Assembly: GCA_947172415.1 (NCBI GenBank)
Contig: OX359192.1
Location: 1,862,501-1,926,500, forward strand
Source of the DNA: Chondrosia reniformis
Taxonomy: Eukaryota; Porifera; Demospongiae; Chondrillida; Chondrillidae
Direction of reading: 5' to 3'
DNA: 64,000 nt
In this document: piece after piece, positions 23,266-51,933 of the stretch
How positions within the stretch are numbered: position 1 is the first letter of the stretch
How the letters are laid out: every line of letters starts with the position of its first letter
The notes under the pieces: generated by a model
Told to the model about the DNA's origin: nothing
The model's input: the letters and a program-made list of their open reading frames with translations, nothing else
Databases searched by the model: none
Translations under genes and position numbers: made by a program

Positions 23266-23269
23266 ATGA

Positions 23270-28309: not shown

Positions 28310-29050
28310 CATATGTCCAGTGTATATACATATGATTCTAGTTTTCCTAAAATTTTCCGAAAGTGTAAAATGATTTGCCATCAAGTCAAGCACCATAATT
28401 GTATTTCATCATCATTGAACTCTGGATATTACCCCTGCCCACTCATGTCCCCTGAAGAGTGCAATGAACTAATGGGCGGAACCAAAGTTTGTTTGATGGG
28501 AACCAGAGTCTCCCCCTAGCCACTCAAAAAGATGGCAGACTAGCCACTCAAACCTCCATTGTATGCCATACTGATGAGTCCTAATAAGGACAAAACAGCT
28601 GTTTATAGCTCGACCAATAAGTACTCTCACAAGCAAAAAGCTTGTGGTTTCCTTATCGGCAGATAAGGGGTACAGCTTAAAGTGTGGCTGACCACACTAA
28701 TATAAGATCTAAAACTGATCTTAAAACATTCATATATAACAATTATTTAACTCTGGATATTACCTCTGCCCACTCATGTCTCCTGAGGAGCACAATGATC
28801 TCTATTATAGTTTGTTGTTTATTCCTGACTGCAGATTGTCTCCTTGTGTCAAGAAGCAGCTTTGATTGCATTACATGAAGACATTCATGCTTTGGAGATC
28901 CTACCTGATCACTTTCAAAAAGCCCTTGAAGTAGTTAAGCCCCAAACTACTCCTAGTACAGTTCAGTATTATGAAAACTATAACAAAGGAATGCACAAAT
29001 CTAACTTACTCTTTTGTTTGGACAATAATCAAGTTGCATAATTATAAAGT
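28310..29050 (+). pseudogene. Displaced 3' end of AFG2A (intron 13 part plus exon 14), copy A
   Basis: 28316-28470 matches 17547-17700 of AFG2A intron 13, and 28745-29050 matches 17640-17945, including the CTGCAG acceptor and exon 14 (28835 onward). The encoded segment [20 protein letters not shown] onward is almost unchanged, but one T is missing in the run after AAATCTAAC, shifting the last residues and moving the stop to 29041. The two parts are separated by ~270 bp that include the ribozyme-like motif, and a CTCTGGATATTACC stretch occurs in both. There is no upstream AFG2A exon, so it cannot encode the ATPase. Confidence 0.85.
28556..28625 (+). ncRNA. Decayed hammerhead ribozyme-like motif, copy A
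   Basis: CTGATGA at 28571 is followed by GTCC, a 6-base loop and GGAC (stem II, 28578-28591), then AAAAC where the catalytic core requires GAAAC, then AGCT and GTT. Order and spacing match a type I hammerhead with a very short stem III. Flanking ATA/TAT and CG/GC pairs can form stem I with one mismatch. The G12-equivalent is A and the cleavage triplet is GTT, so it should be inactive or nearly so. Confidence 0.55.
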
Positions 29051-29444
29051 ATGTGGGGCTTTATATACTTGCATGGAATGGAAGATACAGACATCTAAAA
29101 AAATATATATTCATGTATTTACAAATGCAGTATATTAACAATACAATTCTTCATGTGGCTATCATGATGTGTCCAAACATATATAGGAGCATTGTGCACG
29201 TGTATGGTTAAGTCAATCGCTTAAATTACAGCATGCCACTTCTGTATGGTTACCTTACCACATGATTACTGTCTTGTTCGTTACTTTTAAATTAATAAAA
29301 AAATAAGTGACTGAACCATACACATAGGAAATTCAATGTGGAAATGAAACTAAGGACGTCGACCGCACAGCATGGGTACTGTACCCTTAACAACATACCT
29401 AGGTATATTGTGTATATACTCCATATTATACAAGGTAAATAAAA

Positions 29445-29874
29445 ACATTCAAAAATGAAGTTCAAAGTACTTATTACCGAGCGGTATAGCGAGGTTAATT
29501 GTTTCCGTAGCTTAGGGGAGTCGGATCATAGATAATGTTGTTCGTTTAACTATGGTCGAATCGAGGTTGCCAACGCACATAATTGCTTAAAGGTGTGGCA
29601 AAGAAAGTTTTCCCGTTTATTTAGGCCCTGGGGGTCTTCTTCAGTCACTGAAGAAGACCCCCAGGGTCGAAACGTTTGGCAGACAGAAGAATCGAAAAAA
29701 CTGCGTCTCTAGACGCTCTAAAAGTCGAAAGATGAACCTTTACAAAGATAAGTTCGACGCAGTTAGAAGAAATCCTTATTCCATTATTGATCACTTTCTT
29801 GTTTCATTACTTTTTCTAGATGTGCCAATCACAGTTATAGTGCCATCCCTACTTTTAACTTCATTTTTGAATGT
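29445..29874. repeat. Terminal-inverted-repeat element M2, copy A, with nested M1
   Basis: Ends are ACATTCAAAAATGAAGTT at 29445 and its complement at 29874; the right end continues TTATAGTGCCATCCCTACTT inward. An M1-type element (about 29610-29790) is nested inside. The shorter M2 copy at 36290-36397 shares both ends. Confidence 0.7.
29626..29666. repeat. Perfect 41-nt palindrome inside nested M1
   Basis: CCCTGGGGGTCTTCTTCAGT, one central C, then the exact reverse complement. It is a duplication in inverted orientation of the M1 core motif. Confidence 0.9.
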
Positions 29875-29919
29875 TTTTATTTAACTTTTTATTATACAGT
29901 ACACTGTACAGAGAATTTG

Positions 29920-30250
29920 AAGCTTAATTAAAAAATGGCGTTCGAAGAGGCCCTAAATTTGGCACCTTCAAAAGTAACACTCTTCGGATAGAGCGCGTTG
30001 AAATCTAGGGTTGCCTATTCCCTAGTTTGGAAACATTAATGACGATTTAGTACTTGTGTGTACCTGCGTAAGTTCGCATGTTAGCGCTAGCTCATTTGAA
30101 AAAAGAAGAAGAAGAAGAAGAAAAAGAAAAAAGGAGGAATTGCAGAATTTGGCCTATTTCGGTTTAACCACTTTGCGAAGGTTATAGAGCATCGTAACAT
30201 ATTTTGGCGTTTAGAAAAGCATGCAAAAACGACTGCAAACACTCGAATGC
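29920..30250 (+). repeat. Dispersed repeat (matches 21760-22070 inverted), copy A
   Basis: Reverse-complement relative of 21760-22070, with a private GAAGAA-rich expansion around 30106-30135. Confidence 0.8.
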
Positions 30251-30352
30251 AACCGAAAATCCCATCGTTGTTGATTTATGAGGTGTTAATTGATAATACA
30301 TTGAATAGGGTGGCCTTGTTTTTTTTTGGCCATCTCTACGTACTCTCTGATC

Positions 30353-30987
30353 ATAGATTATCTATACTAATTACGTAGTATAGATAATCTATGCTGTATT
30401 CTCTATGGATTAAGGTCATCGTTTTAACTGCATTCATAGATAAAACTTGATTTTTAATCATATTCATAGCATGGCCTAGTTCAGTCACGAGTACCACAGG
30501 TCCACCTCACAAATTAGCGGGAATTGGCGGGGCTTTCAGCAAAGTGTACATACATGGATGAATTCTTCCCCAAAATACTTTTCTTCGTTGATACAGCGCA
30601 AGAGACTTCTTATAGCAATGAAGAGGTATACAGACGAATAGGTCTGGGTGTAATACGTGTTCTTCTTTTAATAAGCTCCTTTCCTGAGAGGGGAACGACT
30701 GGTAGACTTAGCTGGGGATATGAATTCTACTCTAGTCAGTCAGCACGGGGTAAAACCATTGGATTGGAACGGAAAACATTTCAATCTCTCAAATCTTCTA
30801 ATCTAAATAATTTTTTGGCCGATTTGAAGAAGAAAGTAATCAAAGTGGAGTGTGGCGATAAGACGGATATTGCAGAAGTTTATAAACGTACGACTTATGC
30901 ATTGATGTCGTTGCTCTACCAATTCCCATGGGACGAGCCAGACGTTCTGTCGCCTAACAAGGTTACGTAGTATAGATAATCTATGCT
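30353..30987 (+). mobile_element. Palindrome-bounded segment carrying the TICRR exon-1 fragment, copy A
   Basis: A 25-bp sequence starting TTACGTAGTATAGATAATCT lies on both sides of the TICRR fragment (30371-30395 and 30963-30987) in the same orientation. Its core also occurs inverted at 30353-30369 (ATAGATTATCTATACTA), so the left end is a palindrome. The layout suggests that a TICRR fragment was captured between ends of a small element, or inserted into one. Confidence 0.55.
30554..30970 (+). pseudogene. TICRR (treslin) exon-1 fragment, copy A
   Basis: 138-codon open frame from ATG, matching the first exon of TICRR at 61015 with few differences (for example F for L in ILFFVDTA). It holds the start of the treslin N-terminal domain: VDTAQE, LSWGYEFYSSQSARG and PWDEPDVLSPNK. 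Homology stops exactly at AACAAG, where a repeat end supplies Val-Thr-stop. About 160 bp of TICRR 5' flank is also copied. It cannot make full treslin; whether the fragment is transcribed is unknown. Confidence 0.8.
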
Positions 30988-31276
30988 CTGATGATATTCA
31001 TATGGGACCCTAATAATAATAATGACTATTAGAGTGACAATCAGTAATCTGACCAGCCAAAATAGGCTTACTAGTCACAAAAAATTGGTGGGGTGATTAC
31101 AATAAGTTGTGAATAAAAGGGAGTGCCTAAGTTTATACACTGTGTATCTGACATCCAACAATTTCTGTGTGAGTGACATTTTGGGTATACATCAACTCGG
31201 TACGTTCTACGTATAGCTAACTATATATACATGTATATATTAATCATAAATTTACTCTGTTAGTTAGTGCCTAGAA

Positions 31277-31492
31277 ATGGCCAATTTAGGAGAGCGCATA
31301 TGCGAGTACACTGTGGACACGAGTTACATGACTCTTATAAGGCCACTACTCGTTGAAGTTTTACAAGAAATCCTTACCTTCTGCCGAGAAAGAGCAGCTA
31401 ATATGAGAGAAAACGCCGGTCCCGTAATTGTCGCTGCTGGAATTATTGCAATCCTTGTTGGAGGAGTCATCTGCTTTCACAACGATCAATAG
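31277..31492 (+). CDS. Small tail-anchored-like protein (71 aa), copy A
   Basis: Single coding exon from ATG 31277. The N-terminal 45 residues are polar and helical-looking; residues ~47-66 (AGPVIVAAGIIAILVGGVIC) are hydrophobic, followed by FHNDQ. It is related to the 110-residue gene at 20827 by its C-terminal Gly/Val hydrophobic segment and by a shared 5' region: GTGTGAGTGACATT, TCAACTCGGTAC as donor and CCTAGAAATGGCC at the acceptor/start. Function not recognised. Confidence 0.5.
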   Translation: MANLGERICEYTVDTSYMTLIRPLLVEVLQEILTFCRERAANMRENAGPVIVAAGIIAILVGGVICFHNDQ

Positions 31493-31619
31493 GATGAGTA
31501 ACTTTGCTCAGAATGTAGTGTGATAACTTTATTTGGCTGAACTAAACTAATACGTAAAACTTTCAGTACTATGTATTACATATACGTATATGATTATGAA
31601 AGTAGTGTTGCGCTCAGAA

Positions 31620-31949
31620 TTATCGGTTCGTTTCTTGTTTCTGCAGCAGGGATTGATGACACACACCACCCACACTTGGCATTCTGCAGACGCAGTAAAT
31701 CGGGATCTTCCGTGTTGCTTTCTTCTTCGTCGTGGATGACGAACTTGGTCGTTTCCTTCGGATTGCTCTCTTGCGGGTTTCCACGCAGTCAGGCGGGTAC
31801 CGACGATCCGTGAGGTAGGCGTACACGTCCTGCACCAAATCGCCAGCTTCTTCCGCCTCCTCGAAATCCCTGAACGTCTCATCCATCCTCTCTCTATCTT
31901 CTACCATCCGTTCGCACGTTTCGTTCACAAGTGAGAGCGCGTGTATCAC
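31620..31949 (-). pseudogene. Transposon integrase-like fragment, copy A
   Basis: 109-codon frame on the minus strand. DVYAYLTDRRYPPDCVETRK followed by RAIRRKRPSS resembles the segment before the zinc-binding region of integrase-like proteins of the KRBA2/SCAND3 type. IYCVCRMP resembles the start of a PHD-like C4HC3 finger, but the rest of the finger is missing. Probably a relic of a domesticated or dead transposon. The family assignment is a motif-level judgement. Confidence 0.35.
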
Positions 31950-31969
31950 CTCGGACTAGTTATCACCGG

Positions 31970-32008
31970 GGGCGGACCAATTATCGCCTGCCATAAATTG
32001 GTCCGCCC
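31970..32008. repeat. Perfect 13-bp stem hairpin, copy A
   Basis: GGGCGGACCAATT and AATTGGTCCGCCC separated by 13 bases; unusually GC-rich for its surroundings. Confidence 0.85.
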
Positions 32009-32109
32009 GATGGACCGATTTTTTCGTGACAAAACCATAGACTTAGTCACTAACTCGGGGTATACTGCACAGCGAGATTAAGGACAAAGTCAAGCAACAT
32101 ATATATATA

Positions 32110-32720
32110 TCAATTCCTAACTAGGCAGATGCATTGCATCATGGGGGCGAGCCTGAGCAAGCCGAATGAAAGGTGGTATAGCAGAAGCGTGAGGTAGCCC
32201 AGGATCGAGCTGTGAAGGAGCTGGAGAGGCCACAAGACATGAGTGCCATGTGCATGTGTGTGGGTGAGTGTGAAGGAGCTGGGAAGGATGCGAGATGAGT
32301 GTTACCAGAAGACATGCATAGGGTAGAGTGGGGATGCATGTATATAGAGGGTGGAGAATAGGGAAAGGTCCATGCATGGTGTGGAAGGTACTGATGGAAA
32401 GGAGTGAGAAGGGCCATGAAAAGAGGAGAGGAGAGCAGATAGATAAGGGGAGCAAGCTCAGCAGGATGCTATGGATGTCAGGCTGGGGTGGCCATGGGAG
32501 GGAGCATTAAGGCTGAAGCGAGAATAGGTGCTGATCTTCGCGATGGCGCTCCAGAAAACGATGGGTATGGGTAAGGTTGGCAAGTAGTCTTTATTTCGTG
32601 CGCTTAACCAACCGTTTGAAGCTTTCCGCGGCGAATATTCAATCCGTTCACGAGCGGCGGCCATTTTGGTTGCTAATGAGGTAATCTAATATAAACTAGG
32701 CAGATGCTAATCATCGTGGG
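32110..32720. other. G-rich purine-biased island, copy A
   Basis: About 600 bp of much higher GC and purine content on the plus strand (GGAGCTGGAGAGG, GAGAAGGG, AGGAGAGGAG). GGCAGATGC and GGGGCGAGCCTGAGC occur at both ends (32124-32155 and 32700-32730), suggesting an inserted block between short direct repeats. Long frames on the minus strand lack any family resemblance and are treated as a by-product of composition. Confidence 0.4.
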
Positions 32721-32799
32721 GCGAGCCTGAGCTGAGGCAGTCGTGCGAATAGAATACGTATAAGCGTGCGAATTGCATCCCCGTAATGCCAAATTGAAA

Positions 32800-33375
32800 A
32801 ATGATTAACCTTATCATATAATCACTGCCTTGTTTCGTTACTTTTTGCAGATGTACTAGTCATGATCACTGGTGAACACTGCCATTCCTACTTCTATAAC
32901 ATCATGTTTTGTATATATATATACGTAACTTTTATTATTTGCAATGATAGCCCAGCACAGGCTTACGTGCAAAAAAACTCCCCCTTTTCATAAAGGTAAC
33001 TTGTTCACAGTTTTATTTGTAATGTTGCTGTGCATTATTGTCCGAAGACCTTGGAAATTGTTCAATGGTTCTTGTTCAATTCTCATATATACCCAAAAGG
33101 AATTTATAATCAGGTAGCTAGGTCAATTTTGTTGCCCCTGCATGATCAGAACATTGCCATTTTAGTGAAACACCTGACTTTGCATGAGGCTGCATGCATG
33201 TTACAAGGGATGGACTCATATGTGGCCCATTTGAGATTCGCAAGATTATATTGACCTCAATTTTAAGAAGACTAGTCTATATACTTGACTTGTGCCAGGC
33301 TGTCCAACTGTCACTAGTGCAATATCCTTTTTTACATTTTGAATGGTTTTATCTTAGACTCTATGTACTGACAAC
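32800..33375 (+). repeat. Repeat block R3, copy in tail A
   Basis: See the shared landmarks described for 23270-23765. It is followed directly (33376-33555) by a copy of the extreme 3' end of the PH gene, including the stop codon and the last few codons (GVASK), and then jumps to sequence homologous to 18805 onward. Confidence 0.8.
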
Positions 33376-33555
33376 GATCACTTGCCTGAGTACAAACATT
33401 TATTAAAATGAAATCGAAATAAGCCAAGATTACGTACAAACTGTACAAAAGAAAGAAAAGTTACTGTAACTTCAAAAATACATAAGTACATGTTTCACAC
33501 TTAGAATCACCCAAATTACTTGACAAGGTTTCTTATTTTGAGGCAACACCAAGTT

Positions 33556-34880
33556 ATAGTATAGTAAGGTATAGTATAGCATAAATAACAATTACTTATA
33601 TATACAGTTTATATACTCCCAAGCAATTTGTCTCCATGTTCACACCCCACATATATAGCTGATCATGCATGATATATAAAATAGCTCAGTTATATACCAA
33701 TCATGAATTTGATTAAACAAAACATTAGAGTAAACAATGACTTCCTATTACAGCCCACCAATGAAATTTACATTATGTATTAGGTATATATATATACAGT
33801 ATTGCAGGTCCAACAAGCCATTAGTCCATTAGTACTACTATTTACATGTGTATATATGTTGATCATGCAAGCTATATACACAAATACCCAATATATATAA
33901 CAATAAAAAATACGTTTATAATAATAATGAGATTCAGCAACACAATGTTTCACAGAAATGAATGTTTCAACCCGGAGGTCTTCTTCAGCAATGAGGAAAA
34001 ATGAGTACAACCAAGTTTAAATAAAGGATGTGATGGTGATTGAGTGATGATGTCATGGTTTGTGCACCAACTAATAAATTTGGACCCTGGAATGCAAGTT
34101 GACCCCATATGGCATGACATTATTCATTAACACCCCCTTTTTTTAATTTAGCTCAATCAATTAACTCAATTATTATTGCTTAAATCAGTATAATACGGTC
34201 GCCTACACGAATTTCTTTTGCGTCAATATAGGAACAATTCTCAAACTTAATACAAATATGCTTTATCTAACCTTCACTATAACTCGCTTATTCGGTAGCT
34301 CCTTCTCGTAGGAGAGCGTCGGCTTGTCATAGCCGTTCACGAAAGGATGATCTTTTGCAACGAGGTGGTGACGTATTCGAAACGTCACATGATTCACAAA
34401 ATGTGTACGCAGCGATAGAAAGACATCACCCAAATTGTACAATCATAACCTAGAATTCTTCATTATTATCTTGCAATTTTAAGTAAGCAAAATTTCGCCA
34501 GACGTTTGTCATACACATGTACCATGTTGGTTTCACAGTGATCTGACCAATTGAAAAATTGTATGAATATAATACATTGTGGTCCTCCAGTTTTCTACCA
34601 AAGGGAGGCGTAAATGAAAAATTCCTTAATCTAAACTGAATTTTATACCCTAAACTTTATGATAATATGGTGATGGTCATTGTCTAGGTGTTTCGTATCG
34701 AATATTTTGTCTGCCGCGATCGATCGCACAACTGTCGCCCCCTTGGCTGAACAACTCGATCGTACACTGAACAGCTGTTACCCACGTGTTAACCAAGGGG
34801 GCGAGTGCGATCGATTTATATAATAAATTGTTTCCTGTGTTTGTTATTTGCCCACCCGCCCGCGTGGCTTTGAAGCCACT
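33556..34880. repeat. Copy of the 18.8-20.6 kb block in tail A
   Basis: Same orientation as 18805-20640 with many indels. It includes an AACCCGGAGGTCTTCTTC motif at about 33968 and the loop plus right-arm remnant of the large foldback element (34220-34430). Confidence 0.8.
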
Positions 34881-34932
34881 TCTTTGGATGAGAAACAGGA
34901 AATTTATGGAGCGCCAAAGTGGACAAAAATGA

Positions 34933-35014
34933 AGATCGATGTCGATGTCGATATCTAAGAGCGATGTCGATATCGATGTCGATGTCAATCGATCGTCGGT
35001 GTCGACAGTCGATC
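34933..35014 (+). repeat. GATGTC/GATATC simple repeat before the HECT-like gene, copy A
   Basis: Runs of CGATGTCGATGTCGATATC-like hexamers, many of them palindromic (GATATC, ATCGAT), ending about 55 bp before the ATG at 35070; likely part of that gene's promoter or 5' UTR. Confidence 0.7.
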
Positions 35015-35069
35015 GTCTGTAATACCTGTTCTTCTTTACCAGCTGTTCTTCTTTACCAGCTGTTAAGAA

Positions 35070-37391
35070 ATGGCGGAAGACAAAGTACAACAGGCTATTG
35101 ATATTCTCATACCGCTTCTCGGTCAGCGTGAGGCTGGAGAAAGCTCCAATTCAGGGTCAATAAACAGTGAACCACGCCAAAGAGGTATAAGTTAGGCCAA
35201 GCAGCTACAGGCTAATTTGATTTGCGATTCAGTGTTTCGTGCTACTACATGGAAATCTCAAAAACTAAACCCCTAGTACCGTGTTATGTAACTGCGCGAA
35301 CATCTTTTTCTACGGGTTCATCGTTATATTATATTGCGCCCACGACGTTGACGTTTTTGTACTATTCAGTATAAGGTAAATATACTATTCACATGCACTC
35401 CTTGGATATTGAAGGCCCTAATTGACAATATATACAATATCGAATATTATAATGTGAATGCTATATAACATGAAGTATCTGTCCGGATGGACGGTTGCAG
35501 CAATGAAGTGTACATAATTATAATTACTGGTGTATACAAACTTTTATGCATAGGTATATGGTGAGAGATAGGCCAAATATAATTGTATGGCATCATGGCA
35601 AAATTTAAAAACTCATGTAGTGGACATGTATACATGGTGTCTGTGAATGCTGACATAAAGTGGTAGCTTCATGTATATTTGTCCATCTGATCATGTATGG
35701 TGAGATATAGGCACATATTATATAAACTTTCTATACTCATTGATCATGCTTAATATAGATGCAGGAGTTGAGTTATATACTTACGGGATGCCAGCATTAA
35801 ACATTAATTCATACTGAATTTGCATGGGCTGGCATGAGCTTAGGGCATTAGGCCTATATAGTCTTCATATGTATCCTTGGTAGTCTATGTAGAAATTTTA
35901 ATGTCGTGTCACTTTTCCCTAAGTTTTTTCTCACCATTCACAGACTCATTGTTCATGCATTATAGATGCATGGCATGCAGTATATAAAGCATGATCAATG
36001 ATTATGAGTTATAGAAAGTTTAATGTACATATATATTCTCACCATACACCAACATAATATATCAGAGAGTATGGCAGTACTCTCTAAGTAGGGATGGCCG
36101 AAAAAAACATGGCCGCCCAATCCAATGTATTATCAATTAACACCTAATAAATCAACAGCGATAGGATTTTTGCTTGTATTCGAGTGTTTGCAGTCGTTTT
36201 TGCATGCTTTTCTAAATGCCAAAACATGCTTTCGCCAAGAAAACTTTCAAAACAAATGTTAATAATTGGAGCAATACAAATTAAATAAAACATTCAAAAA
36301 TGGAGTTAAAAGTAGGGATGGCACTATAACAACGATTGGCACATCTAGAAAAAGCTGTTATAGTGCCATCCCTATTTTTAACTTCATTTTTGAATGTGTT
36401 TTTTAACTTCATTGTTATGGTCTGCATACCTAATACAGGGGCAAATATTCGAGGCTCCTGCAGCCGGGCTTTGGATGCAGTTAGGTCTTTCAGGAACCGT
36501 TTGGGTGGTACTGCAACACTGAATGACATCACAGCTGAACAAAAAGCCAACTTTGGCCCTTACAAGCAACCAAAAGGGAAAGGGCCTGCCAAAAGAAGTA
36601 AAGGAATAAGTTGGACTGTTAAAATGGTATGCTTGAGCTCCACTAATGCTAAGCGAGTGCCTTGTACTGTTGTTGAACGAGAAGCACTTATAGAGGCTGG
36701 CTTGGGAGAGAAGAAAGTATTCATTGAAGACATAAATTGTTCACATGAGGAGTTTAAATCTGCAATAATTGCAACTTTTCCCAAGCTAGGTGAATGTGGG
36801 GGGTTCGATTTGTTACGATGTATACCCAATACCAAGGAGTTAGAGGTCATTTCTGTGGCTATATCACAGTCACCGAAGCTCTTGAAGAGTGTGGTGGCAT
36901 GTGGAAGGGTATTTATCCGACCAATTCAGAAGAACTTGGCCCTTGATCCTGACAAGGAGCTAACCTCTCCGGTGCAGGTGTGTTCGAATATATACTGCAG
37001 GAGTCACTGCATGATACCATCAATGACTCGTGCATTTGGCGTATCGATATCTTTGTTTGTAATTTAGCTTAATGAAAAATGTATCTACTGTGGTGAAGAA
37101 GTGGCCTTGACTCATTTGAGAAAGCATGTGCAGCGTTGCAGGTTTGACACATGTATATAACTAACCAGCTATATAGCAATTATTTCATGAATATATATAC
37201 TTATATTAAAGAGTATACCGTACTCTTTGATAACATACTCTATGTACATATGTTATAGACTCAAACCAATAGATAGTGAATCAGACAGTGGTAGCAGTAC
37301 TAGTCTAGGTAATAAGCCTGCCCCAAAGATTCCTTGCATAAGTATTTCATCTGATGAGTCTGAGGACCTGGATGCAGCTGTGCCTTCCAAG
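35070..37391 (+). pseudogene. 5' half of a HECT-protein-like gene, copy A, cut at the unit junction
   Basis: Four exons join in frame: 35070-35184, 36439-36977, 37068-37141 and 37259-37391 (287 codons). The N-terminus is MAEDKVQQAIDILIPLLGQR. Exon 2 has SFRNRLGG, FGPYKQPKGKG and EALIEAGLGEKKVFIED, followed by FPKLGECGGFDLLRC and GRVFIRPIQKNLALD. Exon 3 has a CIYCGEE...HLRKHVQRC putative zinc site, and exon 4 is Ser/Asp-rich. This order resembles N-terminal halves of uncharacterised animal proteins that end in a HECT (G2E3-like) ubiquitin ligase domain. No VWA or HECT exon follows; the core of unit B begins 250 bp on. Intron 1 (35185-36438) contains M2. Confidence 0.6.
36290..36397. repeat. 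Palindromic M2 element, copy A
   Basis: 42-bp inverted arms (ACATTCAAAAATGGAGTTAA, then AAGTAGGGATGGCACTATAACA) with a 24-bp loop, in intron 1 of the HECT-like gene copy. Confidence 0.85.
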
Positions 37392-39597
37392 GTATTGCAT
37401 AATATACATTTTTATATTTTCATATGCATAATACCTATGCATGCTTGTTATGCAGGTAGCCACTGAAGAAGTATATATATTAGCGTAATTAATAAGGCAT
37501 ATTATCAACGATTGTGCAATAGGAGTTGTATTTACAATAGTTACAAACATTGGTCATGCATGTATGCATTCGAAAAGCTCTGCAGGTGCACAGCCACTAG
37601 GTCTTGCATCATCCCTAATTGGTTATTGGTTAGACCAATAGACTCTATGTACCGACAACGATCTCTTGCCTGAGTACAAACATTTATTAAAATGAAATCG
37701 AAATAAGCCAAGATTACGTACAAACTGTACAAAAGAAAGAAAAGTTACTGTAACTTCAAAAATACATAAGTACATGTTTCACACTTAGAATCACCCAAAT
37801 TACTTGACAAGGTTTCTTATTTTGAGGCAACACCAAGTTTTTCCTTTGCCATACGCAATATTTCTGAGGCATTTCTCTTAATTATTTCTGCATCTTTTCT
37901 TTCTTGCTCAGCACGTTCCAACTCTTCCCTTGCCTTCCTTCTTATGTCTTCTGCCTCCTTCCTAGCAACCCTGGCCAGCCTCAGAACCTCCTTTGCCTGC
38001 TCAAGACACAGAGGTGGGGTGTCTGGAAAGAAGTCAAATCCTGGCTCCGGATATACCTCAGTGGCACCCATGGTTTCATACTAAAAAAGATAGTGTACAT
38101 CAATTATAATTAAACATTATGCACAATATTGCATCACTTTAAAAATATGCATGCATTACCAAATCAACAAATCCTTTCAATAAACAGAAATATACAAGAA
38201 TGGCAAATTACCTCAGTGGATGCGTTACTAGCTGTGCTGTTTCGATCTGCTCTTTTTGTTGACTTTGAAATATTCTCATTTAGTGTAGTATACTTGTAGT
38301 CCCTAGGAGGCGTGGCATTATAGGTAGATGGAAGATTTCCCAATAAATTCGCTGGATTTGAAGATTTCATTTTTACATAGCCTTTGCCAGAATTATCCAC
38401 CGAATTATCAAAGCCATTATTCTCGGGTGCTGTCATCTCTTCATAGACATCGTCACCAACACCATTTTCTTCTACATCTTGATCAGCTTCTTCGTAGGTA
38501 GAACTTTCTCGATCAGATTCAGTTGTCAGATTTGCCGAAGAAAGATCACCTTGGATTGACGTTATCTCACTAGTGCCTTTGGTAGGTATAGACGGCTCAA
38601 CAGACAGGGATTTTTCTTTTGACACTGGAGCTGGGGGTACCTGATAAGTGTCCTCTATTCTTTGCGTGTGGTCCTGCAACTGTGTGTGGGCAACATCTTC
38701 CTTTTGATCATTACTTTCAAGTTCCAGCTGTATTGGCATTGATGTCTTGATCACTCCTGATACTTCTGGACTCTTACTCAATTGTGATTTTGGATCCACT
38801 TCCAAAGCCTGTGGCTGTTTGTGGTCGTCTAATTTTACTGGTTGTCCATCAGGTATAAGTACTGGTTCGGTTGGGCCAATGTTTGAATCTTGAATATGTG
38901 CATCTTTATCAGCCACCTGTGTATTGACTGAAGGCACTCGCTTTCTCGGCTTAGGAACAGGTCTATTTATGTCACTTGGTGCATTCATCATGGAACTGTC
39001 TCCTGATGAGGTAAGGTCACTGTTTTCAGAAAGTACTGATTTACTTCTTGGTGCTATTACAGGAATCCTTAAAGCATCCTGTTTGGTGTCATGTACATCT
39101 GGAAGGTTTGCCAAGCACTCTTTGTTGGGAGAGATGGTTGTCTTGTCCTCTGCAGGTTCCTTACAAGGCTGCTTCTGTTCATCACTTTTAAGGGAGGTTC
39201 TTCTGACAGCCGGAGGTGGTGGCTTACTAAATTGCAGTGCTGCCTTCTTTTCATTGTTTGGTATGGTCATAGGCGGGGTCTTTGGATTCCACTGGGAAAG
39301 ATTGTCATATACTTCCCCATTTGTATTTTCAATATCTACTTCTTTTGGTGGTGTAAGCGGTGGGCTGTCTTCCCGGGTAAGTTTCGGTTTGGTTTTAGTT
39401 GGTAGAGGGGGAGGCGGACCACTTTCAATGAAAGACTCCATTTTACCCTGTTGACTCTCTTCCTTTTGTAGAGAATGCTTGATTTCATCTGAAGCAGCAA
39501 GAGAGACAGGATGCAAATTATTTTGCTTTGAATCACCAGCTGATAATTCTTCTGGCATAAGTCCATTAGTGCTACTTTCTAGAGCAAGTTTAGGTTT

Positions 39598-39674
39598 GTT
39601 TGCAGTAGGAGGTTCAGGTTTGTTTGCAGTAGGAGGTACAGGTTTGTTTGCAGTAGGAGGTACAGGAGGGGGAG
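39598..39674 (-). repeat. Coding minisatellite (PPTANKP repeats) at the recombination point of core B
   Basis: Three near-identical 24-bp units encode PPTANKP-type repeats in exon 7 (minus strand). Counterparts lie at 25475-25535 and 53715-53791. Variants to the left of this stretch in B match C and those to the right match A. Confidence 0.8.
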
Positions 39675-39976
39675 GACCACTTTCTTCCAAATCATCTCTA
39701 CGCTTACTGACATCTCTAACACCATCTCCTCCTGCAACGCCCACTCTTCCAGGTGACTTGGGTGGCAGTAAGGCTATCTTTGTGGATCGTGTATGAGTCT
39801 TGGTGTGAGTGGGAGAGGGACTGCTTGGACCAGGTGACTCTACTGTACTCTCACTTACTGGGGAAGGAGGAGGTCCCTGTTGATTAAAAAATTTGGAAGA
39901 TATTTTAAAAATATTTGCAAAACTTAAACATAAAATTAGTCAAATTGATTACAAGTACCCTTATGGTATTGGAAAA

Positions 39977-40092
39977 TGAACCTAGAAACAGCTGCTTCAA
40001 ACCACTACGCAGTGCTCTGCTACTGAGCTACAATTTCCACGGCAATGCTCCATTTATATTCCCCCTCATTAACAGTCTTATACTATTTAACA
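39977..40092 (-). repeat. tRNA-derived SINE-like element, copy in core B
   Basis: Counterpart of 25850-25965, apparently identical. Confidence 0.65.
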
Positions 40093-40480
40093 GGTAAGTA
40101 ATCAGCCTTAATCCATACAAATTAGTAGTGAGTCATTATACCAGAACTAGCTAACAACATGTACGTACATATTTGAAATTGCTTAACAACCTACTCTTGT
40201 TTACAATGTATAAAACAGAAAATGAACAAAACATCAACTTCCAACTATCACAGCGCTTGCAAACACACAGCCTAATGAATACAATACATTAAGGTAGCTA
40301 AATTTAACATGGACTTGCTTACATCATCTTCATCAAAGGCACAAAACTTTCTAGGCTTCTTTCTCTTGGGTGCCTTGGGTCTAGTGGTAGTCAGATGCAT
40401 GAGAGGAGTAGAAGTTGCAGCGTCTTGAGTCACCTTTATGGTCATAAAGAGTTAAACATTACTTACGTACGTACATGACA

Positions 40481-40668
40481 GATATTCAAGATGGTTCATC
40501 TTTGGTCTTTTGAGCGTCTATAGAGATGCACTTTGTCTTCTGGAGAATCTGATGTTTCAATCCTCGAGGTCTTCTTCAGCGACTCTCCAGAAAACAAACT
40601 GTGTCTTTAGATGCAAAGACCAAAGATGAATCATCTCTAAATGCAGTTAGAAGAAATCCCATCTAAGG
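40481..40668. repeat. Foldback element M1, first copy in core B
   Basis: Counterpart of 26354-26541. Confidence 0.75.
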
Positions 40669-41727
40669 ACATGACAGGCTACGTACAATAAATGTGGGAA
40701 TCAAAGTGACTGTTTAGAAGTAGCGCATTGATACTTTACCTCATCAAATGCTGCCTTATCTGCTTTATTGAATTGGGATGTTTTGGAAACCCCTCCATCA
40801 GTTGCTTCCTTTTTCATTTTCTTTTGCTAAAATGAAAAAGGTACTAAATAGTACAATCTCATTCACTTGAATGGGAGCTAGCAATCAGTAAATCATTCGT
40901 ATTCTTACTTTGGAAGAGGATGAAGAGGGAGCTCTCGATTCTCCAGTCATTTCATCTTGATGTGCAAGCCTTACTTCTTCACATATGGCATTTACCCATG
41001 ATCTCATTTCGTCTTCCGTATCAGTATAAAAGTAATAGTCTCGAAGATTTGTTCCTAAATCATTGTTTTCCTGTGAGATAGGTGAAACAAAAAATGGATT
41101 CTGCAGGTAAGTCAGCTATTCAAAACACCAATATCTCTAAATGAACTTCTAATGCTATAAATACTTCTGTTATAGAGAATGAAATGATGTTTGTTGTGAT
41201 CATAATGGTAATATAGACATTTAAATGAGCATCATAGAATACAATTGCCTCATTCATTGCTGATGAAGACCTCAGTTTAATAAACAAAACCAAGTTTGGA
41301 CAATATCATGGTTTTTGCACAATGATAAAAAAAGGGCTTGGAAATCTCAAACTAATGCTATTATCTTAGACAAGATACAGCTCCAACAAGCCATCGAGTG
41401 TGTGTGAGTGGATTCTTACCATTGCCTTCAAAACCATCATATTTGCACTCTTCTTGATGACATTTTTTGGATCTGAAGAGCAGGCCTTTCTGCAGTCACT
41501 ATAGTCTGCCAGACATACAATACCACATGGCTTCTTGTCCTGAGCAGCATAAGAAAGATATCTTTAATATATCTAATTTAATAAGGAGTACCTGTTTCAC
41601 AATAGAGTCTAGCATTGTTATATTGCAATTTGAGTGTAGATTGAGGTATATAGACAAACAATTGGACAGTATGTATAATTGTGAAACCTTGCATCCATTC
41701 AGTTTTATGGAACAAGTACTAAACTAT

Positions 41728-41915
41728 CTTTGGAAAGGGTCATCTTTCGACGTTGGGAGCGTCTAGAGACGCAGTTTTTCTGATTCTTCTTTCTGCCAGA
41801 TGTTTCGACCCTGGGGGTCTTCTTCAGTGATTGCGTCTCTAGACGCTCCCAAAGTCAAAAGATGACCCTTTCCAAAGATAAGTTCGACGCAGTTAGAAGA
41901 AATCCTTATTCTATT
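41728..41915. repeat. Foldback element M1, second copy in core B
   Basis: Counterpart of 27611-27798, with the same 14-bp flanking duplication. Confidence 0.85.
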
Positions 41916-42426
41916 AAGTACTAAACTATATATAGTCAGTGATGACATTATGGATAAGATAGCCACTAGTTTAATATGTTACAAGGCAACCTAAAACAAC
42001 ATGTACGTACTTCCTTACGACGATGAGTAGGAGTGTGGATAAACTAGTTATAAGTAAACATTGTGGTTAAAAGAATACAAGATGAAACTTAAGGTGCACG
42101 GATTAGTATACAGAATTACTAAAGTGTCATATTAAAGTGCATCAAACGATTGCGACTTAGGGCAAATTTTGTAATCTCACATTCTTTAGACACACAACTT
42201 CAATTTCCTATATATATAAATTGCTATTAAGAGTTGGACAAGCTCATTAAATTGTTAGAGGGTTCTTCTGTAGAGTCTCCCGTGCCAGTTTGATTTTTGA
42301 TTCAATGCACACTCACATGATACTCTACCAATCAGATCTTCCCACTAACTTTTAGGAATATGAATTGGAATTGATCACAATGGGACATTACAATGCCTAT
42401 AGTGATATTTGAAAAACCTTTAACTT

Positions 42427-43167
42427 CATATGTCCAGTGTATATACATATGATTCTAGTTTTCCTAAAATTTTCCGAAAGTGTAAAATGATTTGCCATCA
42501 AGTCAAGCACCATAATTGTATTTCATCATCATTGAACTCTGGATATTACCCCTGCCCACTCATGTCCCCTGAAGAGTGCAATGAACTAATGGGCGGAACC
42601 AAAGTTTGTTTGATGGGAACCAGAGTCTCCCCCTAGCCACTCAAAAAGATGGCAGACTAGCCACTCAAACCTCCATTGTATGCCATACTGATGAGTCCTA
42701 ATAAGGACAAAACAGCTGTTTATAGCTCGACCAATAAGTACTCTCACAAGCAAAAAGCTTGTGGTTTCCTTATCGGCAGATAAGGGGTACAGCTTAAAGT
42801 GTGGCTGACCACACTAATATAAGATCTAAAACTGATCTTAAAACATTCATATATAACAATTATTTAACTCTGGATATTACCTCTGCCCACTCATGTCTCC
42901 TGAGGAGCACAATGATCTCTATTATAGTTTGTTGTTTATTCCTGACTGCAGATTGTCTCCTTGTGTCAAGAAGCAGCTTTGATTGCATTACATGAAGACA
43001 TTCATGCTTTGGAGATCCTACCTGATCACTTTCAAAAAGCCCTTGAAGTAGTTAAGCCCCAAACTACTCCTAGTACAGTTCAGTATTATGAAAACTATAA
43101 CAAAGGAATGCACAAATCTAACTTACTCTTTTGTTTGGACAATAATCAAGTTGCATAATTATAAAGT
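42427..43167 (+). pseudogene. Displaced 3' end of AFG2A, copy B
   Basis: Counterpart of 28310-29050; exon 14 begins at 42952 and the shifted frame stops at 43158. Confidence 0.85.
42673..42742 (+). ncRNA. Decayed hammerhead ribozyme-like motif, copy B
   Basis: Same sequence as 28556-28625, with the same AAAAC lesion in place of GAAAC. Confidence 0.55.
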
Positions 43168-43561
43168 ATGTGGGGCTTTATATACTTGCATGGAATGGAA
43201 GATACAGACATCTAAAAAAATATATATTCATGTATTTACAAATGCAGTATATTAACAATACAATTCTTCATGTGGCTATCATGATGTGTCCAAACATATA
43301 TAGGAGCATTGTGCACGTGTATGGTTAAGTCAATCGCTTAAATTACAGCATGCCACTTCTGTATGGTTACCTTACCACATGATTACTGTCTTGTTCGTTA
43401 CTTTTAAATTAATAAAAAAATAAGTGACTGAACCATACACATAGGAAATTCAATGTGGAAATGAAACTAAGGACGTCGACCGCACAGCATGGGTACTGTA
43501 CCCTTAACAACATACCTAGGTATATTGTGTATATACTCCATATTATACAAGGTAAATAAAA

Positions 43562-43991
43562 ACATTCAAAAATGAAGTTCAAAGTACTTATTACCGAGCG
43601 GTATAGCGAGGTTAATTGTTTCCGTAGCTTAGGGGAGTCGGATCATAGATAATGTTGTTCGTTTAACTATGGTCGAATCGAGGTTGCCAACGCACATAAT
43701 TGCTTAAAGGTGTGGCAAAGAAAGTTTTCCCGTTTATTTAGGCCCTGGGGGTCTTCTTCAGTCACTGAAGAAGACCCCCAGGGTCGAAACGTTTGGCAGA
43801 CAGAAGAATCGAAAAAACTGCGTCTCTAGACGCTCTAAAAGTCGAAAGATGAACCTTTACAAAGATAAGTTCGACGCAGTTAGAAGAAATCCTTATTCCA
43901 TTATTGATCACTTTCTTGTTTCATTACTTTTTCTAGATGTGCCAATCACAGTTATAGTGCCATCCCTACTTTTAACTTCATTTTTGAATGT
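43562..43991. repeat. Element M2 with nested M1 and 41-nt palindrome, copy B
   Basis: Counterpart of 29445-29874; the perfect palindrome lies at 43743-43783. Confidence 0.7.
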
Positions 43992-44469
43992 TTTTATTTA
44001 ACTTTTTATTATACAGTACACTGTACAGAGAATTTGAAGCTTAATTAAAAAATGGCGTTCGAAGAGGCCCTAAATTTGGCACCTTCAAAAGTAACACTCT
44101 TCGGATAGAGCGCGTTGAAATCTAGGGTTGCCTATTCCCTAGTTTGGAAACATTAATGACGATTTAGTACTTGTGTGTACCTGCGTAAGTTCGCATGTTA
44201 GCGCTAGCTCATTTGAAAAAAGAAGAAGAAGAAGAAGAAAAAGAAAAAAGGAGGAATTGCAGAATTTGGCCTATTTCGGTTTAACCACTTTGCGAAGGTT
44301 ATAGAGCATCGTAACATATTTTGGCGTTTAGAAAAGCATGCAAAAACGACTGCAAACACTCGAATGCAACCGAAAATCCCATCGTTGTTGATTTATGAGG
44401 TGTTAATTGATAATACATTGAATAGGGTGGCCTTGTTTTTTTTTGGCCATCTCTACGTACTCTCTGATC

Positions 44470-45104
44470 ATAGATTATCTATACTAATTACGTAGTATAG
44501 ATAATCTATGCTGTATTCTCTATGGATTAAGGTCATCGTTTTAACTGCATTCATAGATAAAACTTGATTTTTAATCATATTCATAGCATGGCCTAGTTCA
44601 GTCACGAGTACCACAGGTCCACCTCACAAATTAGCGGGAATTGGCGGGGCTTTCAGCAAAGTGTACATACATGGATGAATTCTTCCCCAAAATACTTTTC
44701 TTCGTTGATACAGCGCAAGAGACTTCTTATAGCAATGAAGAGGTATACAGACGAATAGGTCTGGGTGTAATACGTGTTCTTCTTTTAATAAGCTCCTTTC
44801 CTGAGAGGGGAACGACTGGTAGACTTAGCTGGGGATATGAATTCTACTCTAGTCAGTCAGCACGGGGTAAAACCATTGGATTGGAACGGAAAACATTTCA
44901 ATCTCTCAAATCTTCTAATCTAAATAATTTTTTGGCCGATTTGAAGAAGAAAGTAATCAAAGTGGAGTGTGGCGATAAGACGGATATTGCAGAAGTTTAT
45001 AAACGTACGACTTATGCATTGATGTCGTTGCTCTACCAATTCCCATGGGACGAGCCAGACGTTCTGTCGCCTAACAAGGTTACGTAGTATAGATAATCTA
45101 TGCT
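44470..45104 (+). mobile_element. Palindrome-bounded segment with TICRR fragment, copy B
   Basis: Counterpart of 30353-30987, with direct 25-bp copies at 44488-44512 and 45080-45104. Confidence 0.55.
44671..45087 (+). pseudogene. TICRR exon-1 fragment, copy B
   Basis: Counterpart of 30554-30970; 138 codons, same truncation after LSPNK. Confidence 0.8.
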
Positions 45105-45393
45105 CTGATGATATTCATATGGGACCCTAATAATAATAATGACTATTAGAGTGACAATCAGTAATCTGACCAGCCAAAATAGGCTTACTAGTCACAAAAA
45201 ATTGGTGGGGTGATTACAATAAGTTGTGAATAAAAGGGAGTGCCTAAGTTTATACACTGTGTATCTGACATCCAACAATTTCTGTGTGAGTGACATTTTG
45301 GGTATACATCAACTCGGTACGTTCTACGTATAGCTAACTATATATACATGTATATATTAATCATAAATTTACTCTGTTAGTTAGTGCCTAGAA

Positions 45394-45609
45394 ATGGCCA
45401 ATTTAGGAGAGCGCATATGCGAGTACACTGTGGACACGAGTTACATGACTCTTATAAGGCCACTACTCGTTGAAGTTTTACAAGAAATCCTTACCTTCTG
45501 CCGAGAAAGAGCAGCTAATATGAGAGAAAACGCCGGTCCCGTAATTGTCGCTGCTGGAATTATTGCAATCCTTGTTGGAGGAGTCATCTGCTTTCACAAC
45601 GATCAATAG
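45394..45609 (+). CDS. Small tail-anchored-like protein (71 aa), copy B
   Basis: Encodes the same protein as 31277-31492, with the same 5' flank including the putative 5' UTR intron. Confidence 0.5.
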   Translation: MANLGERICEYTVDTSYMTLIRPLLVEVLQEILTFCRERAANMRENAGPVIVAAGIIAILVGGVICFHNDQ

Positions 45610-45736
45610 GATGAGTAACTTTGCTCAGAATGTAGTGTGATAACTTTATTTGGCTGAACTAAACTAATACGTAAAACTTTCAGTACTATGTATTACATAT
45701 ACGTATATGATTATGAAAGTAGTGTTGCGCTCAGAA

Positions 45737-46066
45737 TTATCGGTTCGTTTCTTGTTTCTGCAGCAGGGATTGATGACACACACCACCCACACTTGGCATT
45801 CTGCAGACGCAGTAAATCGGGATCTTCCGTGTTGCTTTCTTCTTCGTCGTGGATGACGAACTTGGTCGTTTCCTTCGGATTGCTCTCTTGCGGGTTTCCA
45901 CGCAGTCAGGCGGGTACCGACGATCCGTGAGGTAGGCGTACACGTCCTGCACCAAATCGCCAGCTTCTTCCGCCTCCTCGAAATCCCTGAACGTCTCATC
46001 CATCCTCTCTCTATCTTCTACCATCCGTTCGCACGTTTCGTTCACAAGTGAGAGCGCGTGTATCAC
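45737..46066 (-). pseudogene. Transposon integrase-like fragment, copy B
   Basis: Counterpart of 31620-31949. The GC-rich hairpin follows at 46087-46125 and the purine-rich island at 46227-46837. Confidence 0.35.
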
Positions 46067-46916
46067 CTCGGACTAGTTATCACCGGGGGCGGACCAATTA
46101 TCGCCTGCCATAAATTGGTCCGCCCGATGGACCGATTTTTTCGTGACAAAACCATAGACTTAGTCACTAACTCGGGGTATACTGCACAGCGAGATTAAGG
46201 ACAAAGTCAAGCAACATATATATATATCAATTCCTAACTAGGCAGATGCATTGCATCATGGGGGCGAGCCTGAGCAAGCCGAATGAAAGGTGGTATAGCA
46301 GAAGCGTGAGGTAGCCCAGGATCGAGCTGTGAAGGAGCTGGAGAGGCCACAAGACATGAGTGCCATGTGCATGTGTGTGGGTGAGTGTGAAGGAGCTGGG
46401 AAGGATGCGAGATGAGTGTTACCAGAAGACATGCATAGGGTAGAGTGGGGATGCATGTATATAGAGGGTGGAGAATAGGGAAAGGTCCATGCATGGTGTG
46501 GAAGGTACTGATGGAAAGGAGTGAGAAGGGCCATGAAAAGAGGAGAGGAGAGCAGATAGATAAGGGGAGCAAGCTCAGCAGGATGCTATGGATGTCAGGC
46601 TGGGGTGGCCATGGGAGGGAGCATTAAGGCTGAAGCGAGAATAGGTGCTGATCTTCGCGATGGCGCTCCAGAAAACGATGGGTATGGGTAAGGTTGGCAA
46701 GTAGTCTTTATTTCGTGCGCTTAACCAACCGTTTGAAGCTTTCCGCGGCGAATATTCAATCCGTTCACGAGCGGCGGCCATTTTGGTTGCTAATGAGGTA
46801 ATCTAATATAAACTAGGCAGATGCTAATCATCGTGGGGCGAGCCTGAGCTGAGGCAGTCGTGCGAATAGAATACGTATAAGCGTGCGAATTGCATCCCCG
46901 TAATGCCAAATTGAAA

Positions 46917-48997
46917 AATGATTAACCTTATCATATAATCACTGCCTTGTTTCGTTACTTTTTGCAGATGTACTAGTCATGATCACTGGTGAACACTGCC
47001 ATTCCTACTTCTATAACATCATGTTTTGTATATATATATACGTAACTTTTATTATTTGCAATGATAGCCCAGCACAGGCTTACGTGCAAAAAAACTCCCC
47101 CTTTTCATAAAGGTAACTTGTTCACAGTTTTATTTGTAATGTTGCTGTGCATTATTGTCCGAAGACCTTGGAAATTGTTCAATGGTTCTTGTTCAATTCT
47201 CATATATACCCAAAAGGAATTTATAATCAGGTAGCTAGGTCAATTTTGTTGCCCCTGCATGATCAGAACATTGCCATTTTAGTGAAACACCTGACTTTGC
47301 ATGAGGCTGCATGCATGTTACAAGGGATGGACTCATATGTGGCCCATTTGAGATTCGCAAGATTATATTGACCTCAATTTTAAGAAGACTAGTCTATATA
47401 CTTGACTTGTGCCAGGCTGTCCAACTGTCACTAGTGCAATATCCTTTTTTACATTTTGAATGGTTTTATCTTAGACTCTATGTACTGACAACGATCACTT
47501 GCCTGAGTACAAACATTTATTAAAATGAAATCGAAATAAGCCAAGATTACGTACAAACTGTACAAAAGAAAGAAAAGTTACTGTAACTTCAAAAATACAT
47601 AAGTACATGTTTCACACTTAGAATCACCCAAATTACTTGACAAGGTTTCTTATTTTGAGGCAACACCAAGTTATAGTATAGTAAGGTATAGTATAGCATA
47701 AATAACAATTACTTATATATACAGTTTATATACTCCCAAGCAATTTGTCTCCATGTTCACACCCCACATATATAGCTGATCATGCATGATATATAAAATA
47801 GCTCAGTTATATACCAATCATGAATTTGATTAAACAAAACATTAGAGTAAACAATGACTTCCTATTACAGCCCACCAATGAAATTTACATTATGTATTAG
47901 GTATATATATATACAGTATTGCAGGTCCAACAAGCCATTAGTCCATTAGTACTACTATTTACATGTGTATATATGTTGATCATGCAAGCTATATACACAA
48001 ATACCCAATATATATAACAATAAAAAATACGTTTATAATAATAATGAGATTCAGCAACACAATGTTTCACAGAAATGAATGTTTCAACCCGGAGGTCTTC
48101 TTCAGCAATGAGGAAAAATGAGTACAACCAAGTTTAAATAAAGGATGTGATGGTGATTGAGTGATGATGTCATGGTTTGTGCACCAACTAATAAATTTGG
48201 ACCCTGGAATGCAAGTTGACCCCATATGGCATGACATTATTCATTAACACCCCCTTTTTTTAATTTAGCTCAATCAATTAACTCAATTATTATTGCTTAA
48301 ATCAGTATAATACGGTCGCCTACACGAATTTCTTTTGCGTCAATATAGGAACAATTCTCAAACTTAATACAAATATGCTTTATCTAACCTTCACTATAAC
48401 TCGCTTATTCGGTAGCTCCTTCTCGTAGGAGAGCGTCGGCTTGTCATAGCCGTTCACGAAAGGATGATCTTTTGCAACGAGGTGGTGACGTATTCGAAAC
48501 GTCACATGATTCACAAAATGTGTACGCAGCGATAGAAAGACATCACCCAAATTGTACAATCATAACCTAGAATTCTTCATTATTATCTTGCAATTTTAAG
48601 TAAGCAAAATTTCGCCAGACGTTTGTCATACACATGTACCATGTTGGTTTCACAGTGATCTGACCAATTGAAAAATTGTATGAATATAATACATTGTGGT
48701 CCTCCAGTTTTCTACCAAAGGGAGGCGTAAATGAAAAATTCCTTAATCTAAACTGAATTTTATACCCTAAACTTTATGATAATATGGTGATGGTCATTGT
48801 CTAGGTGTTTCGTATCGAATATTTTGTCTGCCGCGATCGATCGCACAACTGTCGCCCCCTTGGCTGAACAACTCGATCGTACACTGAACAGCTGTTACCC
48901 ACGTGTTAACCAAGGGGGCGAGTGCGATCGATTTATATAATAAATTGTTTCCTGTGTTTGTTATTTGCCCACCCGCCCGCGTGGCTTTGAAGCCACT
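46917..48997. repeat. R3 block and copy of the 18.8-20.6 kb block, tail B
   Basis: R3 at 46917-47492, PH-gene 3' end at 47493-47672, 18.8-kb-type block at 47673-48997; order and sequence as in tail A. Confidence 0.8.
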
Positions 48998-49186
48998 TCT
49001 TTGGATGAGAAACAGGAAATTTATGGAGCGCCAAAGTGGACAAAAATGAAGATCGATGTCGATGTCGATATCTAAGAGCGATGTCGATATCGATGTCGAT
49101 GTCAATCGATCGTCGGTGTCGACAGTCGATCGTCTGTAATACCTGTTCTTCTTTACCAGCTGTTCTTCTTTACCAGCTGTTAAGAA

Positions 49187-51508
49187 ATGGCGGAAGACAA
49201 AGTACAACAGGCTATTGATATTCTCATACCGCTTCTCGGTCAGCGTGAGGCTGGAGAAAGCTCCAATTCAGGGTCAATAAACAGTGAACCACGCCAAAGA
49301 GGTATAAGTTAGGCCAAGCAGCTACAGGCTAATTTGATTTGCGATTCAGTGTTTCGTGCTACTACATGGAAATCTCAAAAACTAAACCCCTAGTACCGTG
49401 TTATGTAACTGCGCGAACATCTTTTTCTACGGGTTCATCGTTATATTATATTGCGCCCACGACGTTGACGTTTTTGTACTATTCAGTATAAGGTAAATAT
49501 ACTATTCACATGCACTCCTTGGATATTGAAGGCCCTAATTGACAATATATACAATATCGAATATTATAATGTGAATGCTATATAACATGAAGTATCTGTC
49601 CGGATGGACGGTTGCAGCAATGAAGTGTACATAATTATAATTACTGGTGTATACAAACTTTTATGCATAGGTATATGGTGAGAGATAGGCCAAATATAAT
49701 TGTATGGCATCATGGCAAAATTTAAAAACTCATGTAGTGGACATGTATACATGGTGTCTGTGAATGCTGACATAAAGTGGTAGCTTCATGTATATTTGTC
49801 CATCTGATCATGTATGGTGAGATATAGGCACATATTATATAAACTTTCTATACTCATTGATCATGCTTAATATAGATGCAGGAGTTGAGTTATATACTTA
49901 CGGGATGCCAGCATTAAACATTAATTCATACTGAATTTGCATGGGCTGGCATGAGCTTAGGGCATTAGGCCTATATAGTCTTCATATGTATCCTTGGTAG
50001 TCTATGTAGAAATTTTAATGTCGTGTCACTTTTCCCTAAGTTTTTTCTCACCATTCACAGACTCATTGTTCATGCATTATAGATGCATGGCATGCAGTAT
50101 ATAAAGCATGATCAATGATTATGAGTTATAGAAAGTTTAATGTACATATATATTCTCACCATACACCAACATAATATATCAGAGAGTATGGCAGTACTCT
50201 CTAAGTAGGGATGGCCGAAAAAAACATGGCCGCCCAATCCAATGTATTATCAATTAACACCTAATAAATCAACAGCGATAGGATTTTTGCTTGTATTCGA
50301 GTGTTTGCAGTCGTTTTTGCATGCTTTTCTAAATGCCAAAACATGCTTTCGCCAAGAAAACTTTCAAAACAAATGTTAATAATTGGAGCAATACAAATTA
50401 AATAAAACATTCAAAAATGGAGTTAAAAGTAGGGATGGCACTATAACAACGATTGGCACATCTAGAAAAAGCTGTTATAGTGCCATCCCTATTTTTAACT
50501 TCATTTTTGAATGTGTTTTTTAACTTCATTGTTATGGTCTGCATACCTAATACAGGGGCAAATATTCGAGGCTCCTGCAGCCGGGCTTTGGATGCAGTTA
50601 GGTCTTTCAGGAACCGTTTGGGTGGTACTGCAACACTGAATGACATCACAGCTGAACAAAAAGCCAACTTTGGCCCTTACAAGCAACCAAAAGGGAAAGG
50701 GCCTGCCAAAAGAAGTAAAGGAATAAGTTGGACTGTTAAAATGGTATGCTTGAGCTCCACTAATGCTAAGCGAGTGCCTTGTACTGTTGTTGAACGAGAA
50801 GCACTTATAGAGGCTGGCTTGGGAGAGAAGAAAGTATTCATTGAAGACATAAATTGTTCACATGAGGAGTTTAAATCTGCAATAATTGCAACTTTTCCCA
50901 AGCTAGGTGAATGTGGGGGGTTCGATTTGTTACGATGTATACCCAATACCAAGGAGTTAGAGGTCATTTCTGTGGCTATATCACAGTCACCGAAGCTCTT
51001 GAAGAGTGTGGTGGCATGTGGAAGGGTATTTATCCGACCAATTCAGAAGAACTTGGCCCTTGATCCTGACAAGGAGCTAACCTCTCCGGTGCAGGTGTGT
51101 TCGAATATATACTGCAGGAGTCACTGCATGATACCATCAATGACTCGTGCATTTGGCGTATCGATATCTTTGTTTGTAATTTAGCTTAATGAAAAATGTA
51201 TCTACTGTGGTGAAGAAGTGGCCTTGACTCATTTGAGAAAGCATGTGCAGCGTTGCAGGTTTGACACATGTATATAACTAACCAGCTATATAGCAATTAT
51301 TTCATGAATATATATACTTATATTAAAGAGTATACCGTACTCTTTGATAACATACTCTATGTACATATGTTATAGACTCAAACCAATAGATAGTGAATCA
51401 GACAGTGGTAGCAGTACTAGTCTAGGTAATAAGCCTGCCCCAAAGATTCCTTGCATAAGTATTTCATCTGATGAGTCTGAGGACCTGGATGCAGCTGTGC
51501 CTTCCAAG
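49187..51508 (+). pseudogene. 5' half of a HECT-protein-like gene, copy B, cut at the unit junction
   Basis: Exons 49187-49301, 50556-51094, 51185-51258 and 51376-51508, encoding the same residues as copy A. Core C starts about 250 bp after the last exon. The palindromic M2 element is at 50407-50514. Confidence 0.6.
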
Positions 51509-51933
51509 GTATTGCATAATATACATTTTTATATTTTCATATGCATAATACCTATGCATGCTTGTTATGCAGGTAGCCACTGAAGAAGTATATATATTAG
51601 CGTAATTAATAAGGCATATTATCAACGATTGTGCAATAGGAGTTGTATTTACAATAGTTACAAACATTGGTCATGCATGTATGCATTCGAAAAGCTCTGC
51701 AGGTGCACAGCCACTAGGTCTTGCATCATCCCTAATTGGTTATTGGTTAGACCAATAGACTCTATGTACCGACAACGATCTCTTGCCTGAGTACAAACAT
51801 TTATTAAAATGAAATCGAAATAAGCCAAGATTACGTACAAACTGTACAAAAGAAAGAAAAGTTACTGTAACTTCAAAAATACATAAGTACATGTTTCACA
51901 CTTAGAATCACCCAAATTACTTGACAAGGTTTC

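Follow-up and report, generated by a model that had tools for sequence, protein, structure and literature searches.

Core B of a sponge tandem array as a hybrid of its neighbours, probably formed by unequal crossover between direct repeats

Our analysis of a 64,000-nucleotide stretch of the Chondrosia reniformis assembly (hereafter, the window) indicates that the middle one of three repeated cores, core B, combines sequence from the cores on either side and would have arisen through unequal crossover (NAHR) between the direct repeats A and C. We put the probability of this reading at roughly 0.8. Self-comparison of the window resolves three direct cores (A, B, and C) with two 9,322-bp tails between them (Table 1), and the outer cores, A and C, are ~96% identical in direct orientation (self-blastn and alignment). 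The left flank of B is that of C, and the right flank of B is that of A. The left flank of A and the right flank of C are each unlike the flanks of the other cores, as must be the case if a duplication took place between A and C.

Table 1. Features of the array and its surroundings (positions in the window)
Feature	Position	Strand	Basis
Core A: partial PH-domain gene copy lacking the first PH exon; right (5') half of B probably comes from it	23763..28315	-	self-blastn, alignment, tblastn
Tail 1: rich in repeats, same sequence as tail 2, with an orphan Treslin exon	28316..37637	.	self-blastn, alignment
Treslin N-terminal exon copy in tail 1 (tail 2 equivalent, 44507-45078); ~97% identical to 60841-61422	30390..30961	+	self-blastn, tblastn
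Core B, left part, C-type	37638..39533	-	alignment; 41/44 variable events B=C, A=B 0
Clump (3,004 bp) with all 10 inter-unit differences (8 B-private, 2 A-private)	37866..40869	.	alignment
35-bp stretch common to B and C, missing in A; 3' end of large open frame, coding or intronic	38155..38189	-	alignment
216-bp (72-codon) in-frame block common to B and C, missing in A	39318..39533	-	alignment
Exchange interval, 147 bp, A (25407-25553) = B = C (53651-53797); one C-type to A-type switch	39534..39680	-	alignment
Coding minisatellite, 24 bp x 3.1 (PPTANKP repeats), within exchange interval	39592..39666	-	TRF
Core B, right part, A-type	39681..42432	-	alignment; 63/70 variable events A=B
B counterpart of the 767-bp A=C identical run; B differs at 40846 and 40869	40790..41556	-	alignment
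11,113-bp run identical to 26753-37865	40870..51982	.	alignment
Tail 2, identical to tail 1	42433..51754	.	self-blastn, alignment
Core C: left (3') half of B probably comes from it; belongs to the sole copy with all three PH exons found	51755..56527	-	self-blastn, alignment, tblastn
First PH-domain exon found, adjoining core C only	57399..57557	-	tblastn; PF00169

In the three-core alignment, we counted variable events inside B (37638-42432) and dropped, uncounted, the alignment columns beyond it, which fall in non-homologous flank. This yields 114 events, 44 to the left of the exchange interval and 70 to its right. On the left side, B agrees with C at 41 events, is private at 3, and agrees with A at none, while on the right side it agrees with A at 63 events, with C at two (40268 and 40436), and is private at 5. 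The pattern switches once, within the exchange interval, and the junction is in register, with neither insertion nor deletion. The first-pass annotation had placed core B at 37641-42426 and predicted one switch within 39536-39677, both of which agree closely with the measured limits, and the variants that it had listed were recovered on the expected sides. The 72-codon block and an extra ~30 bp near 38155 (measured as 35 bp) are common to B and C, as are SSNPANLLG and TSEITSIQG (SSNPVNLLG and TSEIVSIQG in A). Right of the interval, A has KRRDDLEES and GVSKTSQ in common with B, where C reads KCRDDLEEG and GGSKTSQ, and the intron variants near 39.9 kb are also shared by A and B.

No single three-copy tree accommodates B as an unrecombined copy, since the outlier is A to the left of the interval and C to its right. 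In addition, informative sites that alternate along the core, the pattern named in advance as speaking against a crossover, were looked for and not seen. With one switch and only 2 discordant sites among the 114 events, alternating gene conversion along the entire core was rejected. The same observation bears on the scenario in which a three-core array of other origin came first and B was made hybrid later, by gene conversion from both neighbours. Such conversion would agree with a 767-bp run of identity between A and C (described below), which suggests that the cores do convert one another, and the tails could have been homogenised as well. However, B shows no patchwork, and the identity between the repeated units runs from core B across the entire tail into core C, over 11,113 bp. 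We therefore hold a later conversion of B to be distinctly doubtful.

The position of the junction is informative about the kind of exchange. Non-homologous joining gives no reason for the same junction position in two paralogues, and the in-register junction thus marks a homology-driven exchange. It sits in a 147-bp tract of A=C identity that contains the minisatellite. It counts against the reading that A and C have longer identical runs (767, 317, 258, 192, 186, 151, and 148 bp). What NAHR leads one to expect is largely what we found: a hybrid middle repeat with one in-register switch inside a parental identity tract (with two discordant sites), parental direct repeats of high identity flanking the duplicated segment, and, as expected if the event is recent, identical duplicated intervening segments. 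An older tandem duplication would have left A and C as direct repeats ~13.9 kb apart (by coordinate arithmetic). A misaligned exchange of core C on one chromatid with core A on another, within the 147-bp identity, would then have produced the order A-tail-(C-left/A-right)-tail-C, adding one 14.1-kb unit and creating the hybrid core. For this order, only an A-tail-C ancestor is needed. Both the order and the two identical tails, which the annotation had predicted, are observed.

The two tails differ at no position and lie inside a longer perfect run (26753-37865 = 40870-51982). Since the tails carry no allelic differences, we infer that the partners of the exchange were sister chromatids or near-identical haplotypes. 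Given a rough allelic divergence of ~1%, perfect identity over 11,113 bp points to such partners or to later homogenisation.

Template switching during replication (through fork stalling or break-induced replication), with an in-register return from C to A that duplicated 14.1 kb without a reciprocal crossover, would give the same product as NAHR, and from sequence alone the two cannot be told apart. Error-prone synthesis would suit the eight B-private changes clustered at the junction. However, at 2 of the 10 clustered differences (40268 and 40436) it is A that differs while B equals C, which mutagenic synthesis of B leaves unexplained, and the junction is free of insertions and deletions. 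We consider template switching possible but doubtful, and infer that the exchange was a crossover.

An assembly artefact, whether from a double pass through one A-tail-C locus or from two haplotypes placed end to end, would be conceivable given that the 14.1-kb unit slightly exceeds the mean read length of 12.9 kb (all reads, microbial included; computed from figures in PMC12181767), and the alternate haplotype might, in principle, be where the B-private alleles come from. Against this, the window contains no N, and the junction needs a real sequence that joins C-left to A-right. Reads of the present A and C copies, if used twice, could not yield the eight B-private alleles, which suggests that B is a separate physical copy. 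PMC12181767 describes a curated HiFi/hifiasm assembly with a QV of 69.8, from which 4 haplotypic duplications were removed. Concatenated haplotypes in particular are disfavoured, since they would differ at ~1% of positions by a rough estimate (a heterozygosity of 1.0-1.3%, itself rough and inferred from k-mer completeness given in part of PMC12181767), yet 11,113 bp are identical. Altogether, an artefact seems unlikely, and we give it very little weight; the observation is probably real and correctly read.

One unequal crossover probably does not account for the whole array. When the two repeated units (25407-39533 and 39534-53650) are compared, they differ by nine substitutions and one 10-bp gap, eight of these being private to B and two to A. 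All ten differences lie within 3.0 kb around the junction, leaving 11,113 bp without any, and every exception to the pattern of B, none of them listed in the first-pass annotation, is found inside the same 37866-40869 (8 B-private events, plus 2 sites in the A-like part where B=C). Differences between the units would be spread evenly if nothing else had happened, and they are not. Under a uniform clock, the clump has P = 9e-6 (circular gap test formula; 20 of 2,000,000 simulations), and scaling by the older A/C divergence gives P = 0.003. This rate-corrected test used the segments with an older paralogue, with 85 events inside the clump (the two A-private sites included) and 65 outside. On core sequence only, P = 0.11. 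Local mutation-rate variation as the sole cause of the clump is weakened by these tests but still conceivable.

In addition, A and C are identical over 767 bp (26673-27439 in A, 54906-55672 in C), a run that spans two PH exons and ~500 bp of intron in a stretch that is otherwise ~3% different (P ~3e-7). Gene conversion between the outer cores is its probable origin. NAHR itself is not called into question by the clump, but a history of one event is, and the array probably did not arise from one exchange and then stay unchanged. As such, the "single unequal crossover" of the first-pass annotation holds for the unequal crossover, on the strength of the order, the in-register junction, and the identical tails, but "single" is too strong for the entire array in view of the clumped differences and the 767-bp run.

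At least one further exchange would have taken place before, with, or after the crossover, either as gene conversion of the tails or as a transfer in which another haplotype supplied 3 kb of the core. Since the A-private sites poorly fit mutagenic synthesis of B alone, an allelic origin of the centre of B or a later tail conversion would fit better. One tentative possibility, which we think improbable, is that the central 3 kb of B came from other A/C haplotypes through a repair event with several template switches (to homologues and back to the sister), or that a repair-associated burst of changes occurred around the NAHR junction, in either case with the flanking 11 kb identical. Conversion at the crossover is named as a signature of NAHR in a passage of PMC2583991.

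The cores carry copies of a PH-domain gene. When the translations of the three exons at C are joined, they match the PH domain PF00169 (E 3.7e-17); the domain is complete at C only. A 555-aa proline-rich exon comes after the PH exons at C. In tblastn of the window, PH exons 2 and 3 match at A, B, and C, whereas exon 1 has its full match at C only and was not found at core A or B with E up to 1. Cores A and B both end, on their right side, before PH exon 1, so B would be a hybrid of partial copies, and B as a new complete gene was rejected. Any gene count made here will take in copies that are hybrid or truncated. The other window hits to PH exon 1 are weak and lie outside cores and tails, at 10284-10448 (29%, E 0.007) and 17079-17129 (E 0.63). 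The former, on the + strand, perhaps belongs to another PH-domain gene.

Between A and C, the large exon (24241-25812 and 52281-54140) differs by 16 synonymous and 10 nonsynonymous changes (pN/pS 0.19, P 2.7e-5). This low ratio suggests that the two copies were under constraint for much of their divergence. Despite its missing first PH exon, core A may have kept its function until recently, or it may rely on a different first exon. Between B and C, we counted one synonymous change and six nonsynonymous ones (pN/pS 1.79, P 1.0), too few to judge. A protein search for the gene through the genome (117,379,552 bases, 15 contigs; 10 candidates scored) gave 6 matches, all of them in this cluster. 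The best solved matches, among 44, were cytohesin-3, PLEKHA5, and TAPP1, and the open reading frame of the large exon of C had no match in Pfam. By eye, the gene has proline-rich and YxxM motifs, and it may be a docking gene of GAB/DOS-like type.

The event is of an ordinary, already known kind, and the understanding of its mechanism is unchanged by core B. Anti-Lepore globin and the Drosophila Bar duplications each gained an extra copy from unequal exchange between duplicated sequences. Core B would share this origin of the added copy, but it lacks the gene's first PH exon and hence probably does not give a full product. Among human NAHR duplications between direct low-copy repeats, CMT1A is an example (PMC2583991, in part) that resembles the sponge array in that direct repeats, here ~96% identical, have their intervening sequence duplicated. 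The sponge repeats are smaller, at 4.8 kb against the 10-400 kb given for most human cases in the same part of that source. In cell culture, recombination was 20-fold lower when uninterrupted identity fell from 232 to 134 bp (PMC2583991, same part); the uninterrupted identity used here is 147 bp. At maize p1/p2, two directly oriented copies gave rise to a third through unequal crossover, as proposed here, with conversion homogenising the copies later (a section of PMC2686159); in the sponge, two of the three copies lack the first PH exon. What core B offers is an unequal-crossover junction that is textbook-clean, with both parents still flanking it, in a small tandem array apparently in mid-expansion and with signs of further exchange. 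One literature search on Chondrosia reniformis combined with "tandem duplication" gave a single paper, whose title is on another subject, and we claim no wider absence from print.

The tails preserve traces of the older history. Among five tail open reading frames, Pfam gave one match, Treslin_N (PF21854, E 1.1e-9), for the exon at 30390-30961. Its order and orientation are as at C, where 60841-61422 sits right of the core and probably belongs to the Treslin gene itself. In addition, sequence left of core A (23266-23963) recurs in the tail at 32801-33555 with ~90-94% identity. Given these two observations, A and C look like remnants of an older tandem duplication that repeats have since disrupted. 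Some tail sequence also matches many other places in the genome (at least 294 matches). A 2.6-kb dispersed repeat at 34905-37472 is 92% identical to C5:2818606-2821272, and the 245-aa open frame within it (36330-37067) had no Pfam match. A 201-bp direct repeat (33355-33555 and 37639-37839, 99%) flanks ~4.1 kb of tail at the left boundary of core B and is also present before core C. An apparent (CA)n microsatellite, seen in translation, lies at ~56.5-56.6 kb, immediately beyond the right end of core C.
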